Origin: Risungbinella massiliensis
GTDB lineage: Bacteria > Bacillota > Bacilli > Thermoactinomycetales > Thermoactinomycetaceae
Direction of reading: 5' to 3'
NCBI RefSeq assembly: GCF_000942395.1
Contig: NZ_LN812103.1
Location: forward strand, 965,207 to 1,029,206
DNA length: 64,000 bases
Part shown: positions 41,592-50,726 of the stretch, in pieces
Position numbering within the stretch: the first letter of the stretch is position 1
Layout of the letters: each line of letters opens with the position of its first letter
The notes under the pieces: generated by a model
What the model saw: the letters and a program-made list of their open reading frames with translations, nothing else
The model's database searches: none
Told to the model about the DNA's origin: nothing
Program-made: the position numbers and the translations under genes

Positions 41592-42575
41592 TTGATCCAA
41601 ACAGTAGAATACCGAAACTTAGGAACATCTCAGATTCAAATTTCTCCACTTGGGTTAGGATGTTGGCAATTTAGCAAAGGAAACGGACTAGTTGGGAAGT
41701 TTTGGCCAGTCCTAGAAGAATCCGAGATTAAGCAGATTATTAAACTCAGCTTAGAAGGTGGAATCAATTGGTTTGATACAGCAGAGGCATATGGTTGGGG
41801 AGAGTCGGAAAAAGCACTTGACCAGGCTTTAAAGGACATAGGAAAGCCTGCTAAAGATGCACTCATTGCTACGAAGTGGTGGCCAATGTTTCGTTCGGCG
41901 AGTTCCATTACTCGAACGATACAAGATCGTATCAATTGCCTAGGTGGTCGTACCATTCATCTTTATCAAATCCATCAACCATATTCACTATCAAGTGTCG
42001 AAAACCAAATGAAAGAGATGGCAAAGCTAGTTCAAGAGGGGAAAATTGTAACTGCCGGTGTAAGTAACTTCTCTGAAAAACAGATGCGGGAAGCTCATCG
42101 TGTGTTGGCAGAAGAAGGGATCCCGTTAGTATCTAATCAAGTGAAATACAGCCTATTAGATCGTCGTATAGAACATAACGGGGTTATGGAAGCCGCAAAA
42201 GAACTAGGAATTACCATTATTGCATACTCGCCTTTGGAACAAGGAATTCTCACAGGAAAGTTTCATCATAATCCTACTCTAGTAAGAGAGGCAAAAGGTC
42301 CTAGAAGATATATGTCCTCTTTCCGCTCACAAGGGTTGTATCAAACTTTTCCATTTATCCAACTACTAGAGGAAATTGCCAAAAAAAGAGAAGTCAGTGT
42401 AAGTCAAGTTGCATTGAATTGGCTCATTCATGCCCATAATGAGACCGTTGTAGCTATTCCAGGTGCGTCCAAAGTAAGTCAAGCGAAAGATAATATTGGA
42501 GCACTTCAGTTCCGTCTTACACCTGATGAGATGGAGGAGATAGATGCTGCTTCCAAAAAAGTTGCCAAGAAATAG
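41592..42575 (+). CDS. Aldo/keto reductase
   Basis: A 327-residue NAD(P)H-dependent oxidoreductase with the (beta/alpha)8 pattern. Asp and Tyr of the tetrad lie in FDTAEAYGWGESE, the Lys in ALIATKWW and the His in LYQIHQPY; the cofactor site is in AIPGASKVSQAKDNIGAL. Substrate unknown. The TTG at 41592 with AAAAAGGAG about 11 nt upstream is preferred to the longer frame. Confidence 0.9.
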   Translation: MIQTVEYRNLGTSQIQISPLGLGCWQFSKGNGLVGKFWPVLEESEIKQIIKLSLEGGINWFDTAEAYGWGESEKALDQALKDIGKPAKDALIATKWWPMFRSASSITRTIQDRINCLGGRTIHLYQIHQPYSLSSVENQMKEMAKLVQEGKIVTAGVSNFSEKQMREAHRVLAEEGIPLVSNQVKYSLLDRRIEHNGVMEAAKELGITIIAYSPLEQGILTGKFHHNPTLVREAKGPRRYMSSFRSQGLYQTFPFIQLLEEIAKKREVSVSQVALNWLIHAHNETVVAIPGASKVSQAKDNIGALQFRLTPDEMEEIDAASKKVAKK

Positions 42576-42627
42576 GGATAGAAGCAAATATAATAAAGGA
42601 TTGATAGTAAACGATTTTTAGTGAAAA

Positions 42628-42668
42628 AAGGGGTAGAACAGTATGTACTGTTCTACCCCTTTTTATTT
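42628..42668. terminator. Bidirectional terminator between convergent genes
   Basis: AAAAAAGGGGTAGAACAGTA and TACTGTTCTACCCCTTTTT form a near-perfect stem with A- and T-runs on both sides. Confidence 0.9.
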
Positions 42669-42669
42669 T

Positions 42670-44022
42670 TTATACGATGGAAGCGGTTGGTGTTTCCCCT
42701 TGAAGTCTATTTCTTCTCTGTTGCCACCAAAAAATGGGGAGACCTATGACGGTGAGCAAAATAGAGAAGATCGCATAATTGGTCTGTTCGATGGCTGTAT
42801 TCACAATAATGAAGCTAGAGCCAAGAATAGCAACGATCGGGATTACGGGATAAAAAGGTACACGATACTCCCCATTACTAGAAGATGAGGAGTTCTTACG
42901 CATTTTGAAAACGGCAAAGAAAGAAAGAATATAGAACAGGAAAATCGTAAAAGTACAGACATCTGTTAACCAGTTTGGATCACTAAAAAACATATATAAA
43001 ATACTAAAGGTCACAATCCCTAGTATTGAAACGATTGGTGTATTCCATTTAGAAGATACCTTTGCTAGATAACGAGAAAAAGGAAGTTGACTCCGCTGAG
43101 CCATGGCAAATGGAATACGTGGATAACTTAGTATTTTCCCATTCAAGCTTCCAAATATAGAGATCATAATCCCAACAGTAAGGATTTTGCCGCCCAAATC
43201 GCCGAAAAGAATTCCGGCAGCTGTGCTCGCAGCATTTTCTCCTAAATCTACTACTGTTTGTGCTGGTAGTACTTTTAAGATAGCAATATTGATGAATAGA
43301 TAACTGGCTGTTACGATGAGAAGCCCAGCGGTGATTGCTTTTGGAAGAGTTTTCGCAGGGTTTTTCAATTCTCCTGCAACAGAACCTACTAAAATCCAGC
43401 CATCATAAGCAAATAGAGTTGCTAAAACAGCGGCAGAAAAGCTCATTTCCTCTGTTGATTTTGCAATAGCATGGAGTACTTGGGCGTCGCCTTTCCAGAG
43501 ACCAAAAATGATGATCAGCAGGATTGGAATTAATTTGGCAAAAGTGGTAAGGCTCTGAACCAAGCCACCGTATTTGGCTCCCAGAATATTGACCGATGTT
43601 AAGAATAATACAGTGAGGATAGCGATCCAAACTTCATACGAAACTGGAAGTGAAAAAAAGTGTACAAACAAAGAAGAAAAATAAAGTCCGAGTGCTGCGA
43701 TAATGCCAGGTGCGTAGATGACGGATTGCATCCAGCCGCTTAAGAACCCCAATGTTTTTCCGTACGTTTCTTCTATATATGTGTATAGACCGCCTGTTTT
43801 CGGTATACGAGCTGCTAATTCGGCAATGGTAAGCCCACTTGCGATGGTGATGATTCCCCCAACAAGCCAAGCTAACAAAGCTGTCGTTGTATTACCTGTA
43901 CTGCCTAATACCACACCAGGTTTGAGAAATACCCCTGAGCCAATGACACAACCGATTACGATGGACATGGCACTGATGAATCCCAGATCTCTTTTCAATG
44001 TTGCTTGCTGCAATTTTTTCAC
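42670..44022 (-). CDS. Amino-acid permease/exchanger, APC superfamily (SteT/LAT-like)
   Basis: A 450-residue protein with 12 TM helices. TM1 has the substrate-binding unwound motif (VIGCVIGSGVFLKPG) and TM3 follows TYIEETYGKTLGFLSGW. The sequence resembles SteT-type serine/threonine exchangers of the LAT group. The C-terminus ends in a basic tail (WWQQRRNRLQ). Confidence 0.88.
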   Translation of the reverse strand: MKKLQQATLKRDLGFISAMSIVIGCVIGSGVFLKPGVVLGSTGNTTTALLAWLVGGIITIASGLTIAELAARIPKTGGLYTYIEETYGKTLGFLSGWMQSVIYAPGIIAALGLYFSSLFVHFFSLPVSYEVWIAILTVLFLTSVNILGAKYGGLVQSLTTFAKLIPILLIIIFGLWKGDAQVLHAIAKSTEEMSFSAAVLATLFAYDGWILVGSVAGELKNPAKTLPKAITAGLLIVTASYLFINIAILKVLPAQTVVDLGENAASTAAGILFGDLGGKILTVGIMISIFGSLNGKILSYPRIPFAMAQRSQLPFSRYLAKVSSKWNTPIVSILGIVTFSILYMFFSDPNWLTDVCTFTIFLFYILSFFAVFKMRKNSSSSSNGEYRVPFYPVIPIVAILGSSFIIVNTAIEQTNYAIFSILLTVIGLPIFWWQQRRNRLQGETPTASIV

Positions 44023-44159
44023 CTCATCTATTTCTGTGTATCATATTGGTTTTATTAGTTGGAATGAAACGAACGTTTTCTATGTTACATTAGCGATTTA
44101 GCAAAGTAAAGTGTTTGTATATTGGGATATTATTCTTAATTGACATTTTTGAGCAAACA

Positions 44160-44197
44160 AAAAAGGCATCTCCTATTTAGAAGCAGAGAATGCCTAA
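44160..44197. terminator. Hairpin in the permease upstream region
   Basis: AAGGCATCTC and GAGAATGCCT form a stem about 140 bp upstream of the permease start. It may terminate the 99-aa gene on the minus strand. Confidence 0.5.
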
Positions 44198-44304
44198 GCC
44201 TTTATAGTAGATAACAAATAAATATTCATACAAAATCCTTTTCAAATTTTTTTAAAATGATAGAATATGGAAAAATAGACAGATTGTAAGAATAGGAGGG
44301 GTGA

Positions 44305-44604
44305 TTACGAAAAAATGTCGTAAGAATATCCACTGATGATAGTGGTTCCGTTCCCCATGTCTGTTTTTCTTCCATCTAATAAATCGAGAGTAATGGATTT
44401 ACCATTTAATGTAGTTAGTTGAATTCGTTGTGTTTGGCGTTTTGGCGGCTCATATTGAAAGTAACAGATTACTTTTCCTTTTCTATCTGAAGGGAATTGA
44501 TCGATATCATACTCATAGTAGAGATTTACAGAGCGGGTTGTGCGAAACTCTTTGATTACCGAGGCAACTTCTTCATAAGTACCGTCTAGACGCATTCTCA
44601 TCAT
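44305..44604 (-). CDS. Small hypothetical protein
   Basis: A 99-residue soluble, beta-rich-looking protein (YEEVASVIKEFRTTRSVNLY ... IQLTTLNGKSITLDLLDGRK). The start is an ATG-ATG pair with AGGTGATAA upstream. No family recognised. It is divergent from the XRE-TPR gene, separated by 266 bp of AT-rich DNA. Confidence 0.6.
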   Translation of the reverse strand: MMRMRLDGTYEEVASVIKEFRTTRSVNLYYEYDIDQFPSDRKGKVICYFQYEPPKRQTQRIQLTTLNGKSITLDLLDGRKTDMGNGTTIISGYSYDIFS

Positions 44605-44870
44605 TTACATTATCACCTTCTAGTGGTTTTTTTGGTAAATCATGGATTAGTTAGGAGAATCACCTCTTTTATTGTATTCATGTATCCCGAATTTATCAAA
44701 TAATTAATATTTTCTAATTATGATAGTTCCGTATTGAAATTTCCTCTGCAAATCCTTTGATTGAATCAAATTTTTTTAATGTTTTAATCATTTTTACCAA
44801 AATAAAGTAAAAGATTAAATTTTGGATTATTATTCCTACCGGTATATTATTAAATTGAGGTGAAAAAAGT

Positions 44871-46178
44871 TTGGAAAATTTGGATCAAATCCAATTAGGA
44901 AAACTACTTCGACAACGTCGTAAAGAGATGGGTATGAGAATTGAGGATCTAGCGGATGTCAACATCAGTCCCGCCACTATTAGTAATATCGAACGAGGAA
45001 AATCTAGTACGCAACAAAAGAACAAACTTCTATATCTATGTGAGAAGTTAGGACTGGATTTACAGATGCTTCCGACGCTGATTGAAAACAATGTACTACA
45101 AAAAAAGAATATCAAGATGAAATTGGAGTCGCTAGAAGGAATTTTAGAATTTAATCCGGAACAAGTGCTAAAAGAACTGGATGCGATCTCATTACATAAT
45201 TTAGATTTATTGTATGCTTTTAGCGAATATCTAAAAGGAAAATGTTATGTAATACGTGGTAGTTGGACCAATGCCAAGAATCATTTTGTGGAATGTATTC
45301 GAATTGTAGATAAAAACCAATCAACGCTTTTAAGGACAAACTTGAAAGCAGCTAGTTTAAACGAATTGGGACGTGTTTTTTATTTCAGCAACGATTTAAA
45401 ACAGGCTTTGACTTGTGTTGAACAAGGAATTGAATCATTTGATTTAGAAGGAGAACGTCGTTATTGTTGGCATGTACTTTATATATGTAAAGCGACCTAT
45501 TTGGATCAATTAGATGAAACACAAGAATCGTTAAAAGCATTGGAAATATTATGGGAAGAGATTGACCAGATCCAAAAGTTAGACGTGCTCCTCAATATGT
45601 ACGAACTAAAAGCAAGTCTATTATCTAAGCACAAACTATATTTAGAAGCGATGAAAGTAGCAAGGATGGGACTTGGAATTGCTCGGCTTAATCTACAGCA
45701 TGAACGAGCTCTTGAACTCTGTAACGAAATTGGAAGAATTCATATGGCATTGGAAGAATGGGAAGAAGCGCGTCATTCTTTTGAAACAGCTTGTAAGTAT
45801 GAATCGGTTCTCAAGAATCACTCACTGCTGATCCCGTCTTATATTCAGATTGGTCTATTGAATTTGAGGTTACAGAATTTAACCCAAGCAGAATATTATC
45901 TCCTAAAGGCGGTTTCTTTAACGAGAAATGAAACGGAAATTTGGAAGTATATTGAAGCTCATAAGGCACTTGGGGATTGTTATTTGCAAAAAGGTGATCT
46001 TGCAACTGCACTGTGCACTTATCAGAAGGCATTGGCAAAATGCCGAGAACAAAAGCTTTTACGTAAACAGAACGACCTATTAGTTAAAATGTGTAAATGC
46101 GTGGAAAAATCAGACAAAAAATTATTTAACCAATATATTGAAAAGTTATACAAGATTCAGGTAGAATTAGTAAAATAA
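44871..46178 (+). CDS. XRE-TPR transcription regulator (RRNPP type)
   Basis: A 435-residue regulator. Residues ~9-63 are an XRE/Cro helix-turn-helix (LGKLLRQRRKEMGMRIEDLA, then ISPATISNIERG). From ~110 to the end it is all helical with TPR-like repeats (SYIQIGLLNLRLQNLTQAEY, then ALGDCYLQKGDLATALCTYQ). This is the architecture of RRNPP quorum-sensing receptors (PlcR, NprR, AimR, PrgX), in which the TPRs bind a short peptide. TTG start at 44871 with GAGGTG. An 11-codon ORF follows 17 bp downstream in the same transcript. Confidence 0.85.
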   Translation: MENLDQIQLGKLLRQRRKEMGMRIEDLADVNISPATISNIERGKSSTQQKNKLLYLCEKLGLDLQMLPTLIENNVLQKKNIKMKLESLEGILEFNPEQVLKELDAISLHNLDLLYAFSEYLKGKCYVIRGSWTNAKNHFVECIRIVDKNQSTLLRTNLKAASLNELGRVFYFSNDLKQALTCVEQGIESFDLEGERRYCWHVLYICKATYLDQLDETQESLKALEILWEEIDQIQKLDVLLNMYELKASLLSKHKLYLEAMKVARMGLGIARLNLQHERALELCNEIGRIHMALEEWEEARHSFETACKYESVLKNHSLLIPSYIQIGLLNLRLQNLTQAEYYLLKAVSLTRNETEIWKYIEAHKALGDCYLQKGDLATALCTYQKALAKCREQKLLRKQNDLLVKMCKCVEKSDKKLFNQYIEKLYKIQVELVK

Positions 46179-46195
46179 GTCAGGAGGTGATTGTA

Positions 46196-46231
46196 GTGAC
46201 TCAACCACCAAGCACAAATCCAGTTCGCTAA
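46196..46231 (+). CDS. Putative 11-residue peptide downstream of the XRE-TPR gene
   Basis: GTG-ACT-CAA-CCA-CCA-AGC-ACA-AAT-CCA-GTT-CGC-TAA encodes MTQPPSTNPVR. AGGAGG (46182-46187) lies 8 nt before the GTG, as good as any ribosome site in this window. The ORF sits between the regulator's stop and an intrinsic terminator. It has no secretion signal, unlike PapR or AimP precursors. A leaderless signalling peptide, a regulatory mini-ORF or a remnant are all possible. Confidence 0.45.
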   Translation: MTQPPSTNPVR

Positions 46232-46273
46232 TTTCCCTAACACCAAGACTTTACATAAGAAAACCCAGTAATC

Positions 46274-46299
46274 GGCGACCACAGAGGGTCGCCTTTTTT
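46274..46299 (+). terminator. Terminator of the XRE-TPR operon
   Basis: GGCGACC and GGTCGCC form a GC-rich stem followed by six Ts. Confidence 0.85.
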
Positions 46300-46321
46300 C
46301 ATGCAAAAAAAGACCCCAATT

Positions 46322-47326
46322 TTAATGGGATCCGTTTTCATTTGGATAATGTAAATATAAATTTCCAGATGTTGTTACAATCTGGAGTTTGGGAGCCTTG
46401 GAAGGAGAACCTATGTAATAAAAGTGATGCTTTTCGCTCTTCTCCTTTACTTCATAATCTGGAAAGTCAGACTGTAACATTCCTGATGTAGTTCGGGCTT
46501 CTATGGTCATATGAGGAATTTCTGATGAAAAAATAACTTCTATATCTCCATTTAACGAACTAATAGAGCTGCCATCATGTATTTTTTGAAAATAGATAGG
46601 TTGTATTGTCCCGTTTGTCGTATCTGCTTGTAGCTTGGCATCAATATGTTGGAAATTCATATTGCCACTTACGGTTTTAGCCGAGATTTTTTTTGCCGTT
46701 ACTTCTGAGATTTCTAATTCACCATTTGAACTACTCAGGTCCAGCTCATCAGATAACTTCACTCGAGATAATGATTGTTTTCCCGTCACTGTATAGACTT
46801 TGAGAGAATTCGCCGAAATTCCTTTTGCTGTTACTGTTCCATCGATTGACCGAAGATTTGCATTAGTAATGTGCCAAGGGGCATCTTGAAATGTAATATT
46901 ACCAGTCGTACTCCGTACTTCTAATTGTTTCATCGTTATAGGTAATTTTATCTCTAACTGTGCTTTTTTTGTGGAAGTATAGTTAGGTAAGTTCGCTGAC
47001 AAATGAGCCTTTTCTTGAACTTCTAAGAGAATTTGATCATCATTTAATTGGTATTCCAATTTTTCTTGTGCTTGGTTCGAATAAGTTGTATAGCGAATTT
47101 GGATCTGGGATGAGCTGTTTGGTAAGATAATCACATCTGGTACATCTGTTTGTATACTAATATTCTGGATGCCATCAAGTGGGATCGTTTTGGTTACCAC
47201 CTGAGGCGTACCTTTTGTATTGGTATCACTTTGTAGGAACCATAGAATGGATCCGCTTAAAGTGAGAGCAACTCCTAATACAGTCGTGAGAGTCCAGAAC
47301 ATGCGTGGCTGACTACTAGTACGCAT
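46322..47326 (-). CDS. DUF4097-family adhesin-like membrane-anchored protein
   Basis: A 334-residue protein with one N-terminal TM helix (TLTTVLGVALTLSGSILWFL) and an extracytoplasmic right-handed beta-helix-like repeat region (LEVRSTTGNITFQDAPWHIT, LDLSSSNGELEISEVTAKKI, ADTTNGTIQPIYF). This is the DUF4097 pattern, found in LiaX-type envelope-stress proteins. The ATG at 47326 has AGGAGG; the longer frame crosses it. Confidence 0.8.
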   Translation of the reverse strand: MRTSSQPRMFWTLTTVLGVALTLSGSILWFLQSDTNTKGTPQVVTKTIPLDGIQNISIQTDVPDVIILPNSSSQIQIRYTTYSNQAQEKLEYQLNDDQILLEVQEKAHLSANLPNYTSTKKAQLEIKLPITMKQLEVRSTTGNITFQDAPWHITNANLRSIDGTVTAKGISANSLKVYTVTGKQSLSRVKLSDELDLSSSNGELEISEVTAKKISAKTVSGNMNFQHIDAKLQADTTNGTIQPIYFQKIHDGSSISSLNGDIEVIFSSEIPHMTIEARTTSGMLQSDFPDYEVKEKSEKHHFYYIGSPSKAPKLQIVTTSGNLYLHYPNENGSH

Positions 47327-47490
47327 GAAGAATCCTCCTAAAGTAACCTTTTTCACCCTCAGTGTAACATTTGGAAATGGACTGTGAAAGAGAAGTACTA
47401 CGTAATAGTCGGTTTCGCACATTTTTCATAGTATTTTAGATAGATCTATGTTAGGCTATGAAAGTTGAAAAAATGAATGGAGAGATGTCC

Positions 47491-49353
47491 ATGAAGATGA
47501 TGCGACAAGAGACCACGAAAATATACCTTTTGTACCTCGTATTCTCTTCTATCATTTGCTTTCTTCTCCTAATGCTAGAGTTGCCGAGTGAACGATTTTT
47601 TCTAGTTCTAATACCGAAAACACTGCTTTTTGTAGCGCTATTTTTAGTTGCGTTCCTTTATTTCGTCAAACATCCTCACTTTAGGCGAAATCGTGATCTA
47701 TACATAGTTTTAACCGTGGGCTTGTTCTTGTCGAGTGTAATGGCTTACCTCTATCAAGATACTTACTTTGGATTTGATGCTCGCTCTATTGATAGCGAAT
47801 TTGTATATGCCATTATTACGAAGTACGCAAATTTCTGGCCTTTGGTTGACTTTACGTACCAAGATCTATCTGCCTTTTACCCGCCATTGTTTTTTTATGT
47901 CGCTGGTAAATTAGCATGGTTGTTTGGGATGGAACCTTATCATATTTTGCGCTTTATTAATGTTTGGACCCCAATAATGGTAGTACCATTGATCTACTTT
48001 GCTTGGCGACACATTACCAATTCTAGGGTAGGGATGTTAGTCGCAATCACCAGTTCACTTGCTTTTATGTCTGAGATGTATTTTAAGCCTTATGAATTTC
48101 TAAGTCTTATGTTCATCTTGCCTTGGTGGTTTTCCTTTGTAGACCGTCCAAAAGATCAACCTCTTCCACAAGAAACATCAAAATATCGTAGATTTGTTGT
48201 TTTAGCTGGTTTTCTTGGGGCGCTTATCTTTTTGACATTCTACTATTGGTTTTTCCTATTAGTGATTTACACATTGATTCGTCTCGTTCTCTATCTAGTT
48301 GAAACCCGATCTTTGGTTCAAGTCTGGAATCGTTTCCGCCATTGGTTTTATGTTGCAGGTACTGTATTCCTATTTGCGTTGGTTTACTTTGTTCCACTCT
48401 TTATAAGCATTGCTAAATATGGGATCAAGACTTATCAAAATCGATATTTTACCTTTGATATGTTAAAGATCTTTGCACCTCACCTCGAGAATTTAGTAGA
48501 AGAACCTACACAACTTTTTTATCTTATAGGGTTGATTGCAGTCATTTTACTAAGTAAGAAATATGACTTTGTACAGAAGCTCCTATTTCTAGTACTGGGT
48601 ACTTATGTATGGCAATTTTTAGGGAATATCACTGTTGCTTTAAAAAAGCCTATACTGCACTTTAAAATGGAATGGATGATTCATCTTCTCCTAATGGTGG
48701 CTTTTTCTTATGCTATCTACTATCTGATCAATCGAATTGTAGAGTATAAAGAACAAATATACTTTGGGGCAATTATTTTTGTGATCTTGATATTGGGACA
48801 ATACTCTTTACAAGTTCATGATATAGCGATTACCAAAGGATTTAAAAAGGTATCTCAAGATATTCGATCCTTAGAAACAGTAGATCATAAAGGAAAAGTA
48901 TTTCTAACTTCTAGACGTGATATGTATATGCATTATCCAGTGTTTTACTTTGTAGCACCTGAACCAACTTTTACACATCATGCCAGTAGGCGGGATGATC
49001 GGATTCAATTGTTACGTGAGTTAACCAAACAAAGCGACCCGAAATTTATGGCTTGGATGCTCACTTATAATAAATTTGATAAGGTAGACTATCTCTGGTT
49101 GGAGAACAAATACCAAATCTACTTAGTACAAGATCATTTTTTGAAGCTACCAAATGCAGTGTATGAGGAATTTACGTTTGAACCTTCTATGTTCCAGAGT
49201 CGTTATTTTGAACAGAAGACAAAAGGAAAAATGTTCTATGAGGTTCAACCAATTGATAAAACGGAATTTCAATCGTTTACCCCAGCTCAGAAAGCACTTG
49301 CAGAGAAATACGGAGATCCAGAAGTGATAGAGAATCTATCCGAAAAATCTTAA
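47491..49353 (+). CDS. AftA-like GT-C membrane glycosyltransferase
   Basis: A 620-residue protein with about 12 TM helices, then a ~160-residue soluble C-terminal domain. The first extracellular loop has the acidic GT-C motif (DTYFGFDARSIDSEF) and SAFYPPLFFYVAGKLAW, as in galactan arabinofuranosyltransferase AftA, which uses a polyprenyl-phosphate sugar. The sugar and acceptor in this organism are unknown; a cell-envelope polymer is likely. The ATG at 47491 with GGAGAG is preferred over 47458. Divergent from the DUF4097 gene. Confidence 0.75.
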   Translation: MKMMRQETTKIYLLYLVFSSIICFLLLMLELPSERFFLVLIPKTLLFVALFLVAFLYFVKHPHFRRNRDLYIVLTVGLFLSSVMAYLYQDTYFGFDARSIDSEFVYAIITKYANFWPLVDFTYQDLSAFYPPLFFYVAGKLAWLFGMEPYHILRFINVWTPIMVVPLIYFAWRHITNSRVGMLVAITSSLAFMSEMYFKPYEFLSLMFILPWWFSFVDRPKDQPLPQETSKYRRFVVLAGFLGALIFLTFYYWFFLLVIYTLIRLVLYLVETRSLVQVWNRFRHWFYVAGTVFLFALVYFVPLFISIAKYGIKTYQNRYFTFDMLKIFAPHLENLVEEPTQLFYLIGLIAVILLSKKYDFVQKLLFLVLGTYVWQFLGNITVALKKPILHFKMEWMIHLLLMVAFSYAIYYLINRIVEYKEQIYFGAIIFVILILGQYSLQVHDIAITKGFKKVSQDIRSLETVDHKGKVFLTSRRDMYMHYPVFYFVAPEPTFTHHASRRDDRIQLLRELTKQSDPKFMAWMLTYNKFDKVDYLWLENKYQIYLVQDHFLKLPNAVYEEFTFEPSMFQSRYFEQKTKGKMFYEVQPIDKTEFQSFTPAQKALAEKYGDPEVIENLSEKS

Positions 49354-49393
49354 ACAAATGCACTCTGTATTACAGAGTGCATTTGTTTTATGA
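49354..49393 (+). terminator. Intrinsic terminator
   Basis: CAAATGCACTCTGTA and TACAGAGTGCATTTG form a 15-bp stem with a T-rich tail. Confidence 0.85.
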
Positions 49394-49635
49394 AAAAGTA
49401 TATAATTATACAAAAAGAAATCGCTTACATCTAAAAAGATGAAATTATTTTAAGTAGATAACAAAAATTTTCATATGATGATAGTGATCTAACTATTTTG
49501 TCAATATCTTACACAAGTTTCCTAGTTTCGGGTACAATAAAGATGTTGAGTATTTAGGCATTGTCTACCGTTCATCTTTTGTAAGATTGAGCATATATTG
49601 GCAATGGTAACTTCTGTGTAAAGGAGGTACAGCAA

Positions 49636-49803
49636 TTGTTTCAACTACTTTTAAAAGCGAAGCAAGAGTATGTTACCAAGACGCAGACAGATCAGACCTT
49701 TGAAAAGTTCCTAAAATCTTTTCAGGAGTTTGAGAAGCAGATGCGAGTAATGGAAGTAAAACCAAGTAAAGAAAGCCTTTATGGAAGGCCTTTTCGAGGT
49801 TGA
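49636..49803 (+). CDS. 55-aa hypothetical protein upstream of the ClpP-like protease
   Basis: A TTG at 49636 with AAAGGAGG 8 nt upstream opens a 55-codon frame: MFQLLLKAKQEYVTKTQTDQ, TFEKFLKSFQEFEKQMRVME, then a basic tail. It is amphipathic and helical. It ends 29 bp before the protease gene on the same strand, so the two are probably cotranscribed. No family recognised; a protease cofactor is only a thought. Confidence 0.6.
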   Translation: MFQLLLKAKQEYVTKTQTDQTFEKFLKSFQEFEKQMRVMEVKPSKESLYGRPFRG

Positions 49804-49832
49804 AAATTTTAGAAAAGTAAGGGGTTGTGCCC

Positions 49833-50726
49833 ATGAATCAAGGACAAACCCCCGGCTTCTCTTTCCAGTCTCCCAATCAGCCGCTCTATCATGCGGTGCA
49901 TCGTGATCGTTATGATAGACAAGCTTTGATTCGGGAAATAGAGAAGGTGACGGGACGTAGATTAATTATCTATATGTCGAATCTAAATCATCATGAAAGT
50001 TCGATTACAAGAGATGATATCGCCCCGTTTCACGAATTAGTCGGAAATCTGGATCGGAATAGCGATGTAGATTTGCTCATTCAAAGCCCTGGTGGGGATC
50101 CTAATGCAGCTGAAATTATTGTTCATACCTTGCTCTCGCGAACTAAGCATTTACGTGTTGTGGTTCCGCAAGCTGCCAAGAGTGCAGCTACACTCATTAG
50201 CTTAGCGGCGGATGAGATAGTGATGAGTGATACCTCTGAGCTTGGTCCAATTGATCCACAGGTTACGATTCCCACTTCATATGGGTTAGCTTTTCGTCCA
50301 GCCCAAGCTTTTCTAAACGGACTCGAAATGATTAAAAAAGAACATGTAGACGGACAAGCGCTGAATCCTACGTACTATCCATTTCTAAAAGGAGTAGATG
50401 CAGCTTTAATCGATTACTGCTACAAATCGATTGAACATTCCAAACGTTTAGCAGTAAAATGGCTCTCGCGCTCCATGAAAAAGAATCAACCAAAAGAAGC
50501 TGCTCGGATTGCAGAAGAGTTAATTAATATTGAGAAGTATCCAAATCACGGTCAAGTGATTAACTACCAGGATGGATTACGCATAGGGCTACGCATTACG
50601 TATCAATCATTTGATGATCCGATATGGCGTGCTTTTTGGAGGCTATATGTGAACTACATTGTGGTAATGAAAGAGCAACAAGCGGTGAAAATTTTTGAAA
50701 ATACGAATGCTTCCGTCATGTTATAA
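49833..50726 (+). CDS. SDH-type (ClpP/SppA-fold) serine protease
   Basis: A 297-residue cytoplasmic protein of the serine dehydrogenase proteinase family, which has the ClpP/crotonase fold. LLIQSPGGDPNAAEIIVHTL gives the SPGG oxyanion region, and PQAAKSAATLISLAADEIVM has the nucleophile Ser and neighbouring Lys. No membrane segment. Family members degrade peptides; the physiological target is unknown. ATG 49833 with AAGGGG; a GTG 6 nt upstream is possible. Confidence 0.82.
   Translation: MNQGQTPGFSFQSPNQPLYHAVHRDRYDRQALIREIEKVTGRRLIIYMSNLNHHESSITRDDIAPFHELVGNLDRNSDVDLLIQSPGGDPNAAEIIVHTLLSRTKHLRVVVPQAAKSAATLISLAADEIVMSDTSELGPIDPQVTIPTSYGLAFRPAQAFLNGLEMIKKEHVDGQALNPTYYPFLKGVDAALIDYCYKSIEHSKRLAVKWLSRSMKKNQPKEAARIAEELINIEKYPNHGQVINYQDGLRIGLRITYQSFDDPIWRAFWRLYVNYIVVMKEQQAVKIFENTNASVML

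Follow-up and report, generated by a model that had tools for sequence, protein, structure and literature searches.

Why does an 11-codon open reading frame (ORF) lie between the stop codon of an XRE-TPR regulator and the terminator that follows it in Risungbinella massiliensis? The initial annotation proposed that regulator and ORF form an RRNPP-like receptor and peptide, with the leaderless peptide as a new type of signal, or alternatively that the ORF is a translated spacer. The window analysed here is the whole stretch of 64,000 nucleotides in which the locus lies. The regulator, the AGGAGG, the GTG-started ORF and the terminator had all been placed and spelled correctly:

44871..46178, + strand: XRE-TPR regulator, 435 aa, with a TTG start at 44871 and a TAA stop at 46176-46178
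46138..46167, + strand: promoter-like site within the 3' end of the regulator gene, which could drive the tiny ORF independently of the regulator (a lead only)
46182..46190, + strand: Shine-Dalgarno sequence AGGAGGTGA, with AGGAGG at 46182-46187, ending 8 nt before the GTG
46196..46231, + strand: leaderless 11-codon ORF MTQPPSTNPVR, candidate peptide ligand, with a GTG start and a TAA stop
46274..46299, + strand: intrinsic terminator, a stem at 46274-46293 followed by a T-tract

The regulator stop is three bases from AGGAGGTGA and 17 bases from the tiny ORF, which reads GTG-ACT-CAA-CCA-CCA-AGC-ACA-AAT-CCA-GTT-CGC-TAA; because of this 17-base gap and the shared terminator, the two genes are probably carried on one transcript. 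RNA folding over 46170-46310 gave a z of -1.88, and the nine promoter-like sites in the stretch are not above chance (shuffle mean 7.5). No Rfam RNA element matched within 42000-50000 at gathering thresholds. The long flanking ORFs (42670-44022, which appears permease-like by eye; 44305-44604; and 46322-47422, 366 aa) are opposite in orientation to the regulator, with no obvious regulatory target among them. The 11-mer itself has no hydrophobic stretch and few aliphatic or aromatic residues.

Sequence searches alone returned matches of the window regulator to HTH_31, HTH_3 and several general TPR families, placing the HTH at about residues 8-67. None of its NCBIfam matches at E 0.001 was to the Rgg family, and the solved chains 4yv6/4yv9 and 5w4m matched it in the HTH only, over residues 8-65. 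An AlphaFold2 model (mean pLDDT 94.5, pTM 0.86) predicts a TPR superhelix of eight to nine helix pairs, as counted by eye. The first ranks in Foldseek went to LGN-type and other long TPR proteins; NprR and several Rap proteins were among the longest structural matches, with LGN-type TPRs at equal or slightly higher Z. NprR (5dbk) aligned over 346 residues with a Z of 27.2 and an rmsd of 5.1, in an alignment that begins at about residue 73 and leaves the HTH uncovered, and NprR with NprX (4gpk) gave a Z of 25.5. In its modelled fold, the window receptor resembles NprR and Rap.

The same genome (G000) holds 17 such regulators, the one in the window and 16 relatives, one of which is split over two matches. 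At 13 of the 17 (L002-L011, L013, L015 and L016) there is a tiny ORF or an in-frame tail with the motif [D/E/N/Q]PP, hereafter xPP. Tiny ORFs of the paralogs that combine a ribosome site with the motif near the end include MFLFDSDPPEE, MRRVVEHEPPDS and MTFESDPP, and in MAKQFLVNEPPIDSPLSYFVNEPPGDGPINFFATEPPEQSP the xPP unit is repeated. At eight of the 13 (L003, L006, L007, L008, L010, L011, L015 and L016), the ORF shares the reading frame of the regulator's end and constitutes its C-terminal tail. Nothing clear was seen at the 3' ends of L012, L014 and the split paralog. Three further observations belong to this genome: the L006 regulator is broken by an in-frame stop and its xPP ORF is intact; the L013 regulator has its C-terminal part in another frame, again with an intact xPP ORF; and L017, on the 43-kb contig C4, carries MYNIPDPEES with AAGGAGG, out of frame inside the 3' end of the regulator.

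The regulator family was present in 41 of 41 genomes of the sample of its order, the R. massiliensis genome included. Our survey of regulator 3' ends comprised 299 distinct sequences. The window's own family, f1, contributed 242 of them (23 genomes), and five other families together contributed 57. The 299 derive from 334 loci, being the best-scoring matches in the 23 f1 genomes and part of those in the other families rather than all matches; L001, L189, one locus without a usable match and L323, the 3' end of which was too short, were left out, and 31 duplicates were collapsed. ORF classes were assigned without using the [DENQ]PP motif, and leaders were called by a hydrophobicity rule, not by SignalP. 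Among the 242 f1 ends, 69 had a free leaderless ORF, 47 an ORF nested in frame and 17 a leadered one; at 109 no small ORF was found under this stricter rule, which counts against a ligand function. The other families gave 28 leadered, four free and one nested ORF, and none at 24. Only in f1 did the chosen ORFs contain [DENQ]PP, namely 45/47 of those nested and 26/69 of those free, and most xPP peptides in the survey are polar by eye. Several leadered precursors from the other families of the order end in short D/E/N-P motifs, also by eye. The rule erred at L011, called leadered owing to an unrelated downstream ORF while its in-frame tail ends in NPPDN, and L007 and L015 were not called nested under the stricter rule, their ribosome sites being weaker.

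One f1 genome (G009) is that of Staphylospora marina, of the Thermoactinomycetaceae, with 2096/2096 bases identical to NZ_CP034119.1, and we infer that f1 as a whole belongs to this family. Within the class, scoring five candidates per genome gave matches at E 1e-90 in 27 of 299 genomes, and all 27 fall in the same order. A phage origin was rejected after tblastn against 50,697 phage records gave no match and a pattern scan of viral contigs with the window protein returned no relative. One plasmid relative of the regulator was found, at 21% identity, and a search of the contigs of named genomes with the window protein found nothing. A search with L003 returned a single weak stretch in Fimbriimonadia (31% over residues 292-347), which was set aside.

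A short ORF near the stop with a Shine-Dalgarno match of at least 6 occurred at 89/173 family loci and at 11/224 unrelated control genes. With [DENQ]PP added, the counts were 51/173 at family loci, 0/224 at controls and 3/3460 in block-shuffled 3' regions, so that the control genes and shuffles rule out a chance ORF. The motif itself is rare at protein ends, being found in the last 14 residues of 1/255 non-family control proteins.

The in-frame tails provided a separate measure. In all 59 f1 regulators with an in-frame xPP tail, an in-frame start and a ribosome-site match of at least 4 precede the motif. The match reaches at least 6 in 47 of the 59; 200 synonymous shuffles gave a mean of 12.0 such tails and never more than 19. 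The start codons at these 47 strong sites are 44 ATG, two GTG and one TTG. Their ribosome-site core falls in three reading frames (37, 5 and 5), the 37 being the Gly-Gly frame; since this comes on top of the excess over synonymous expectation, it is the nucleotides of the ribosome site, and not the residues they encode, that are kept. We regard this as strong evidence, although not proof, of internal initiation at the nested starts. Double-glycine cleavage was considered as a route of release and is disfavoured by the 10/47 strong sites that lie in other frames. Two separately started xPP ORFs were found in 16 members of the clade defined below, and ten of these pair a nested with a free ORF, some of the ribosome sites being weak; this argues that nested tail and free peptide are the same thing. 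Furthermore, the xPP unit is repeated two to three times in five ORFs (L005, L009, L073, L258 and L270), and such repeats in single leaderless ORFs suggest trimming. In the AlphaFold2 model of L008, which has a nested tail, pLDDT falls under 50 at 435-442 and averages 58 over the last nine residues; at this low confidence the model reveals no docking of the tail, a point against the ligand interpretation.

Protein-level conservation was observed for several of the free ORFs. MRKTTSEPIHT is identical in three genomes: two pairs each show four synonymous and no other changes, the third pair is unchanged, and 16-17 of the 28 bases that follow the ORF differ. Relative to the regulator stop the ORF lies at -1, +2 and +1, which represents two frames, one genome of the three differing in frame from the others. 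M[K/T]RLFGGEPPAV shows five synonymous changes and one other, M[A/T]YFGRKDPIGK four and two, and MD[S/G]EPP three and two; MLFTFGDPPLE, in three genomes at +136, +139 and +211, shows at most one synonymous change and no other. Taken together, the five sets from the window clade contain 22 changed bases, 17 of them synonymous (p 2e-7 relative to an assumed 0.24). The ortholog sets were chosen for a matching peptide, and pairs with diverged or missing peptides (L283/L299, L165/L171 and others) were left out of this count, which thus establishes that such conserved ORFs exist rather than how frequent they are. Outside the clade, three of four sets have one synonymous and no other change each, and the fourth, a GDDDD-type pair, is reversed, with three synonymous and 15 non-synonymous changes, which counts against the ligand interpretation.

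These results bear on two other accounts of the motif. In the first, xPP is a C-terminal segment of the regulator, for instance auto-inhibitory or used for docking, and the separate ORFs are remnants that have split off from it. The 59 regulators ending in xPP and the 37 of 47 strong nested sites in the Gly-Gly frame fit this account; yet protein-level conservation is seen in several copies that are separate or downstream and have a ribosome site of their own, nested and free copies occur together at ten loci, the ribosome sites exceed synonymous expectation and the window copy is a separate ORF, so we consider it improbable. In the second, which takes up the translated spacer of the initial annotation, the ORF spaces the regulator from the terminator or couples translation, and its product has no function as a peptide. 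That the ORF is short and adjoins the terminator fits such a device, but absence of the motif from the 224 control genes, the repeated units and tandem copies, and the protein-level conservation of several free copies leave this the least probable of the readings by far.

The regulators were placed in an unrooted FastTree of 294 sequences, with five short rows of the 299 left out; it carries local support only, and some long branches meet. The window regulator falls in a set of 145 members, all f1, with a local support of 98. As labelled on the tree, where any regulator with [DENQ]PP in its last 14 residues counts as nested (the stricter 47 having been assigned regardless of the motif), the clade comprises 57 nested, 25 free xPP, 26 other free and 36 with none, as well as the one false leadered call at L011. 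Among the other 149 rows, 44 are leadered, 16 of them f1. With a looser ribosome site and a longer reach, an xPP ORF or tail was found in 91/145 inside the clade compared with 3/149 outside. Even by this measure none was found in 54 of the 145, which counts against the ligand interpretation; some of these members carry other short leaderless ORFs (EPIHT, DPT and GDD endings) and some have none visible. The initial annotation had named loss or frameshift of the small ORF beside an intact regulator as the finding that would speak against it, and this does occur in part, in those 54 members and at L283, where the tail meets a stop at which its ortholog L299 reads on.

In a group of 33 rows outside the clade (L133, L173, L300, L307, L315 and others), leaderless ORFs ending in GDDDD or DDDTD overlap the regulator stops. 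From their sequences, these Asp-run ORFs are possibly a second leaderless peptide class. Their presence in a group separate from the window clade raises the possibility of more than one loss or gain of the leader.

PP-type and leadered receptors are best told apart at positions 319, 168, 282, 242 and 279. Separating positions lie preferentially on the A helices, as assigned from the model: 9/10, 11/15, 14/20 and 18/30 for increasing numbers of positions, against a background of 137/324. The p value weakens from 0.0023 for the top 10 to 0.03 for the top 30, and describes a single clade contrast uncorrected for descent. The window regulator, with R168, N242, R279, E282 and L319, has the residues typical of PP types. 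Several receptors of non-PP peptides change position 319 (Trp with EPIHT and with some GDD types); the L084/L090/L253 group, with DPT peptides, keeps Leu319, so this position is not strictly linked to PP. Set against the covariation of peptide and groove that had been proposed, this contrast, in which groove positions differ between PP-type and leadered clades, amounts to a weak check rather than a controlled test of co-evolution.

How far does this extend to the window copy? Its peptide is atypical for the clade, with Gln preceding PP and a further six residues following. The nearest regulator, L020, is 44% identical and has the tiny ORF MVRFFDVEPPDN; place, ribosome site and PP are common to both loci, and the peptide sequence differs. 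Of the conservation anticipated for the 11-mer, position and design were therefore retained but not the exact sequence. The genus is absent from the other 22 f1 genomes, and the 11-mer has no close ortholog. The atypical peptide and the distance to the nearest relative weigh against the ligand interpretation. A function for the window copy is argued from its place, ribosome site, PP and receptor signature. It is accordingly conceivable, if unlikely, that the clade system is real and that this 11-mer has decayed or diverged strongly and has no function: QPP in place of acidic-PP, a long C-terminal part, a GTG start and the lack of a close ortholog would all agree with decay. The intact ribosome site of the window copy argues otherwise, as does a receptor that retains the PP-type groove residues and E286, the latter common to the nearest relative.

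Two published classes invite comparison. RRNPP(A) receptors are described as having 250-500 aa, TPRs and mostly an HTH, a description that fits the 435-aa window regulator, with an adjacent ORF of 10-100 aa and a ribosome site; the window ORF, at 11 aa, falls within this range, and some clade peptides, such as MTFESDPP, are shorter. The Sec or SHP/PptAB-type leader of the class was not found, the sole leadered call in the 145-member clade being an error of the hydrophobicity rule. With LCP/RopB systems, the clade has in common an ultrasmall, leaderless ORF that has a ribosome site and lies close to the receptor; by sequence, however, the receptor is not of the Rgg/RopB type, and MTQPPSTNPVR is not a highly hydrophobic peptide of 8-10 residues. 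Judged in this way, the window-clade system would function like RRNPP and LCP systems yet is a strict member of neither, on account of the leader in one case and of receptor and peptide type in the other.

Leaderless peptide signals have already been published for the SIP/LCP class of RopB-type receptors (PMC10518010), so such a signal is not the new type that the initial annotation supposed. As described in excerpts of that paper, the LCP/SIP peptides of the RopB clan, like those of the window clade, are encoded by an ultrasmall ORF with a ribosome site beside a TPR regulator and lack a leader, and one longer form is suspected of being trimmed, as we propose for the window clade. LCPs are mostly 8-10 residues long and highly hydrophobic, whereas window-clade peptides are hydrophilic and contain proline, and LCP genes are divergent in three characterised cases, whereas window-clade peptides lie downstream of the regulator or nested in it (PMC10518010). 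Thermoactinomycetaceae is not among the families listed for LCP in those excerpts.

NprR-NprX and Rap-Phr belong to the nine-TPR clan B (PMC12700828, in excerpt). NprR, like the window regulator, combines an HTH with a long TPR superhelix and has its peptide ORF just downstream, but NprX and Phr precursors are reported to be exported through Sec (excerpts of PMC10075063 and PMC9765709), while the window clade has no credible leader. Tandemly duplicated Phr propeptides have repeated mature units like those of the five repeat-containing ORFs, with a signal sequence that the clade ORFs lack (PMC11343458, in excerpt). The AloR-AloP systems of Paenibacillus also form large paralogous sets per genome with downstream peptide ORFs, and the Alo12 ORF is leaderless as in the window clade, the other AloP being leadered and secreted (PMC7425212). 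Their taxonomic range is different, an AloR-like search having found essentially only Paenibacillaceae, and in-frame nesting, as seen in the window clade, is not described in the excerpts of that paper.

At its strict level, a genome screen for RRNPP systems required a secretion leader or an SHP match; its excerpts mention Thermoactinomycetaceae a single time, in connection with four gene clusters that neighbour candidate systems (PMC10075063). A lineage-specific leaderless class may have escaped screens of this kind. Among the matches listed in a search of the open-licence literature, none concerned a leaderless peptide in Thermoactinomycetaceae or a pheromone encoded within the gene of its receptor.

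Taken with these comparisons, the data suggest the following mechanism. The regulator would be an NprR-like receptor in which a DNA-binding HTH at the N-terminus precedes a TPR superhelix, the concave face of which would hold a short peptide centred on an acidic residue (Gln in the window) and two prolines. Either the whole peptide or a C-terminal unit trimmed from it would bind the TPR groove and thereby alter DNA binding. The source of the peptide would be a separate downstream ORF, the arrangement of the window, or else a ribosome site and start codon nested in frame within the 3' end of the regulator gene. No secretion leader would be present on clade peptides, in contrast to NprX, Phr and most AloP precursors. 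Translation, trimming, groove binding, and release and re-import via an oligopeptide permease are the steps that we infer. Release with re-import is, on balance, favoured by analogy, because SIP and LCPs, although leaderless, are exported and taken up again by routes as yet unknown (PMC10518010, in excerpt); how leaderless peptides leave and re-enter the cell is an open question even for LCPs. The R. massiliensis genome encodes four oligopeptide-binding proteins and one EcsB relative, which make a re-import route possible.

An overlapping variant of this mechanism would keep the ligand inside the cell, where it would report the expression of its own operon and send no signal between cells. The clade lacks a credible secretion leader, and nesting in frame couples the synthesis of receptor and peptide, as such a reporter would need. 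Constant co-synthesis, though, might be expected to saturate the receptor, and the secreted and re-imported LCP peptides, the leadered precursors of related receptors and the permease-binding proteins in the genome all speak for exchange, leaving the variant a serious rival, though less likely than release and re-import.

Overall, it is likely that the tiny ORF is translated and supplies the cognate leaderless peptide ligand of the adjoining NprR-like XRE-TPR regulator, in a clade system that looks like a stripped-down, little-known form of bacterial peptide signalling. This is supported by the enrichment of xPP in the clade and at family loci, the nested ribosome sites and the protein-level conservation of free ORFs. 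It is also supported by the double xPP ORFs, the repeated units and the leadered precursors in other families of the order, and by the A-helix positions, the NprR/Rap matches and the oligopeptide-binding proteins with EcsB. The first proposal of a receptor of RRNPP type with a leaderless peptide ORF is supported by these controls, clade counts, nested sites and the predicted fold. To a broader reading we give an even chance: that NprR-like receptors of the Thermoactinomycetaceae support a second leaderless signalling class, and that in about four in ten clade members (57/145) receptor and ligand are one gene, in which a nested start would free the C-terminal acidic-diproline tail while the full-length receptor keeps a tethered copy. 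With leadered and leaderless systems on related receptors in one order, leader loss or gain and the one-gene receptor and ligand become directly testable.

Some other arrangements were seen along the way. An ORF beginning MKPGN, with a GGAGG site, starts at +86 to +116 after the stop in L075, L114, L116, L118, L132, L151 and L274, regulators at which neither a leadered precursor nor a PP peptide turned up. A divergent regulator relative lies on a Staphylospora marina plasmid (L335/L371; NZ_CP034119.1, 29577 to about 31200), and 3' of it a leadered precursor, MRKTLAFLIASIL...SDPKCC, is followed at once by the leaderless 8-mer MSGEPIGG with a TAAGGAGGTG site. The extreme in repeat number is L024 (G029), a leadered precursor with four GNPGEY units.
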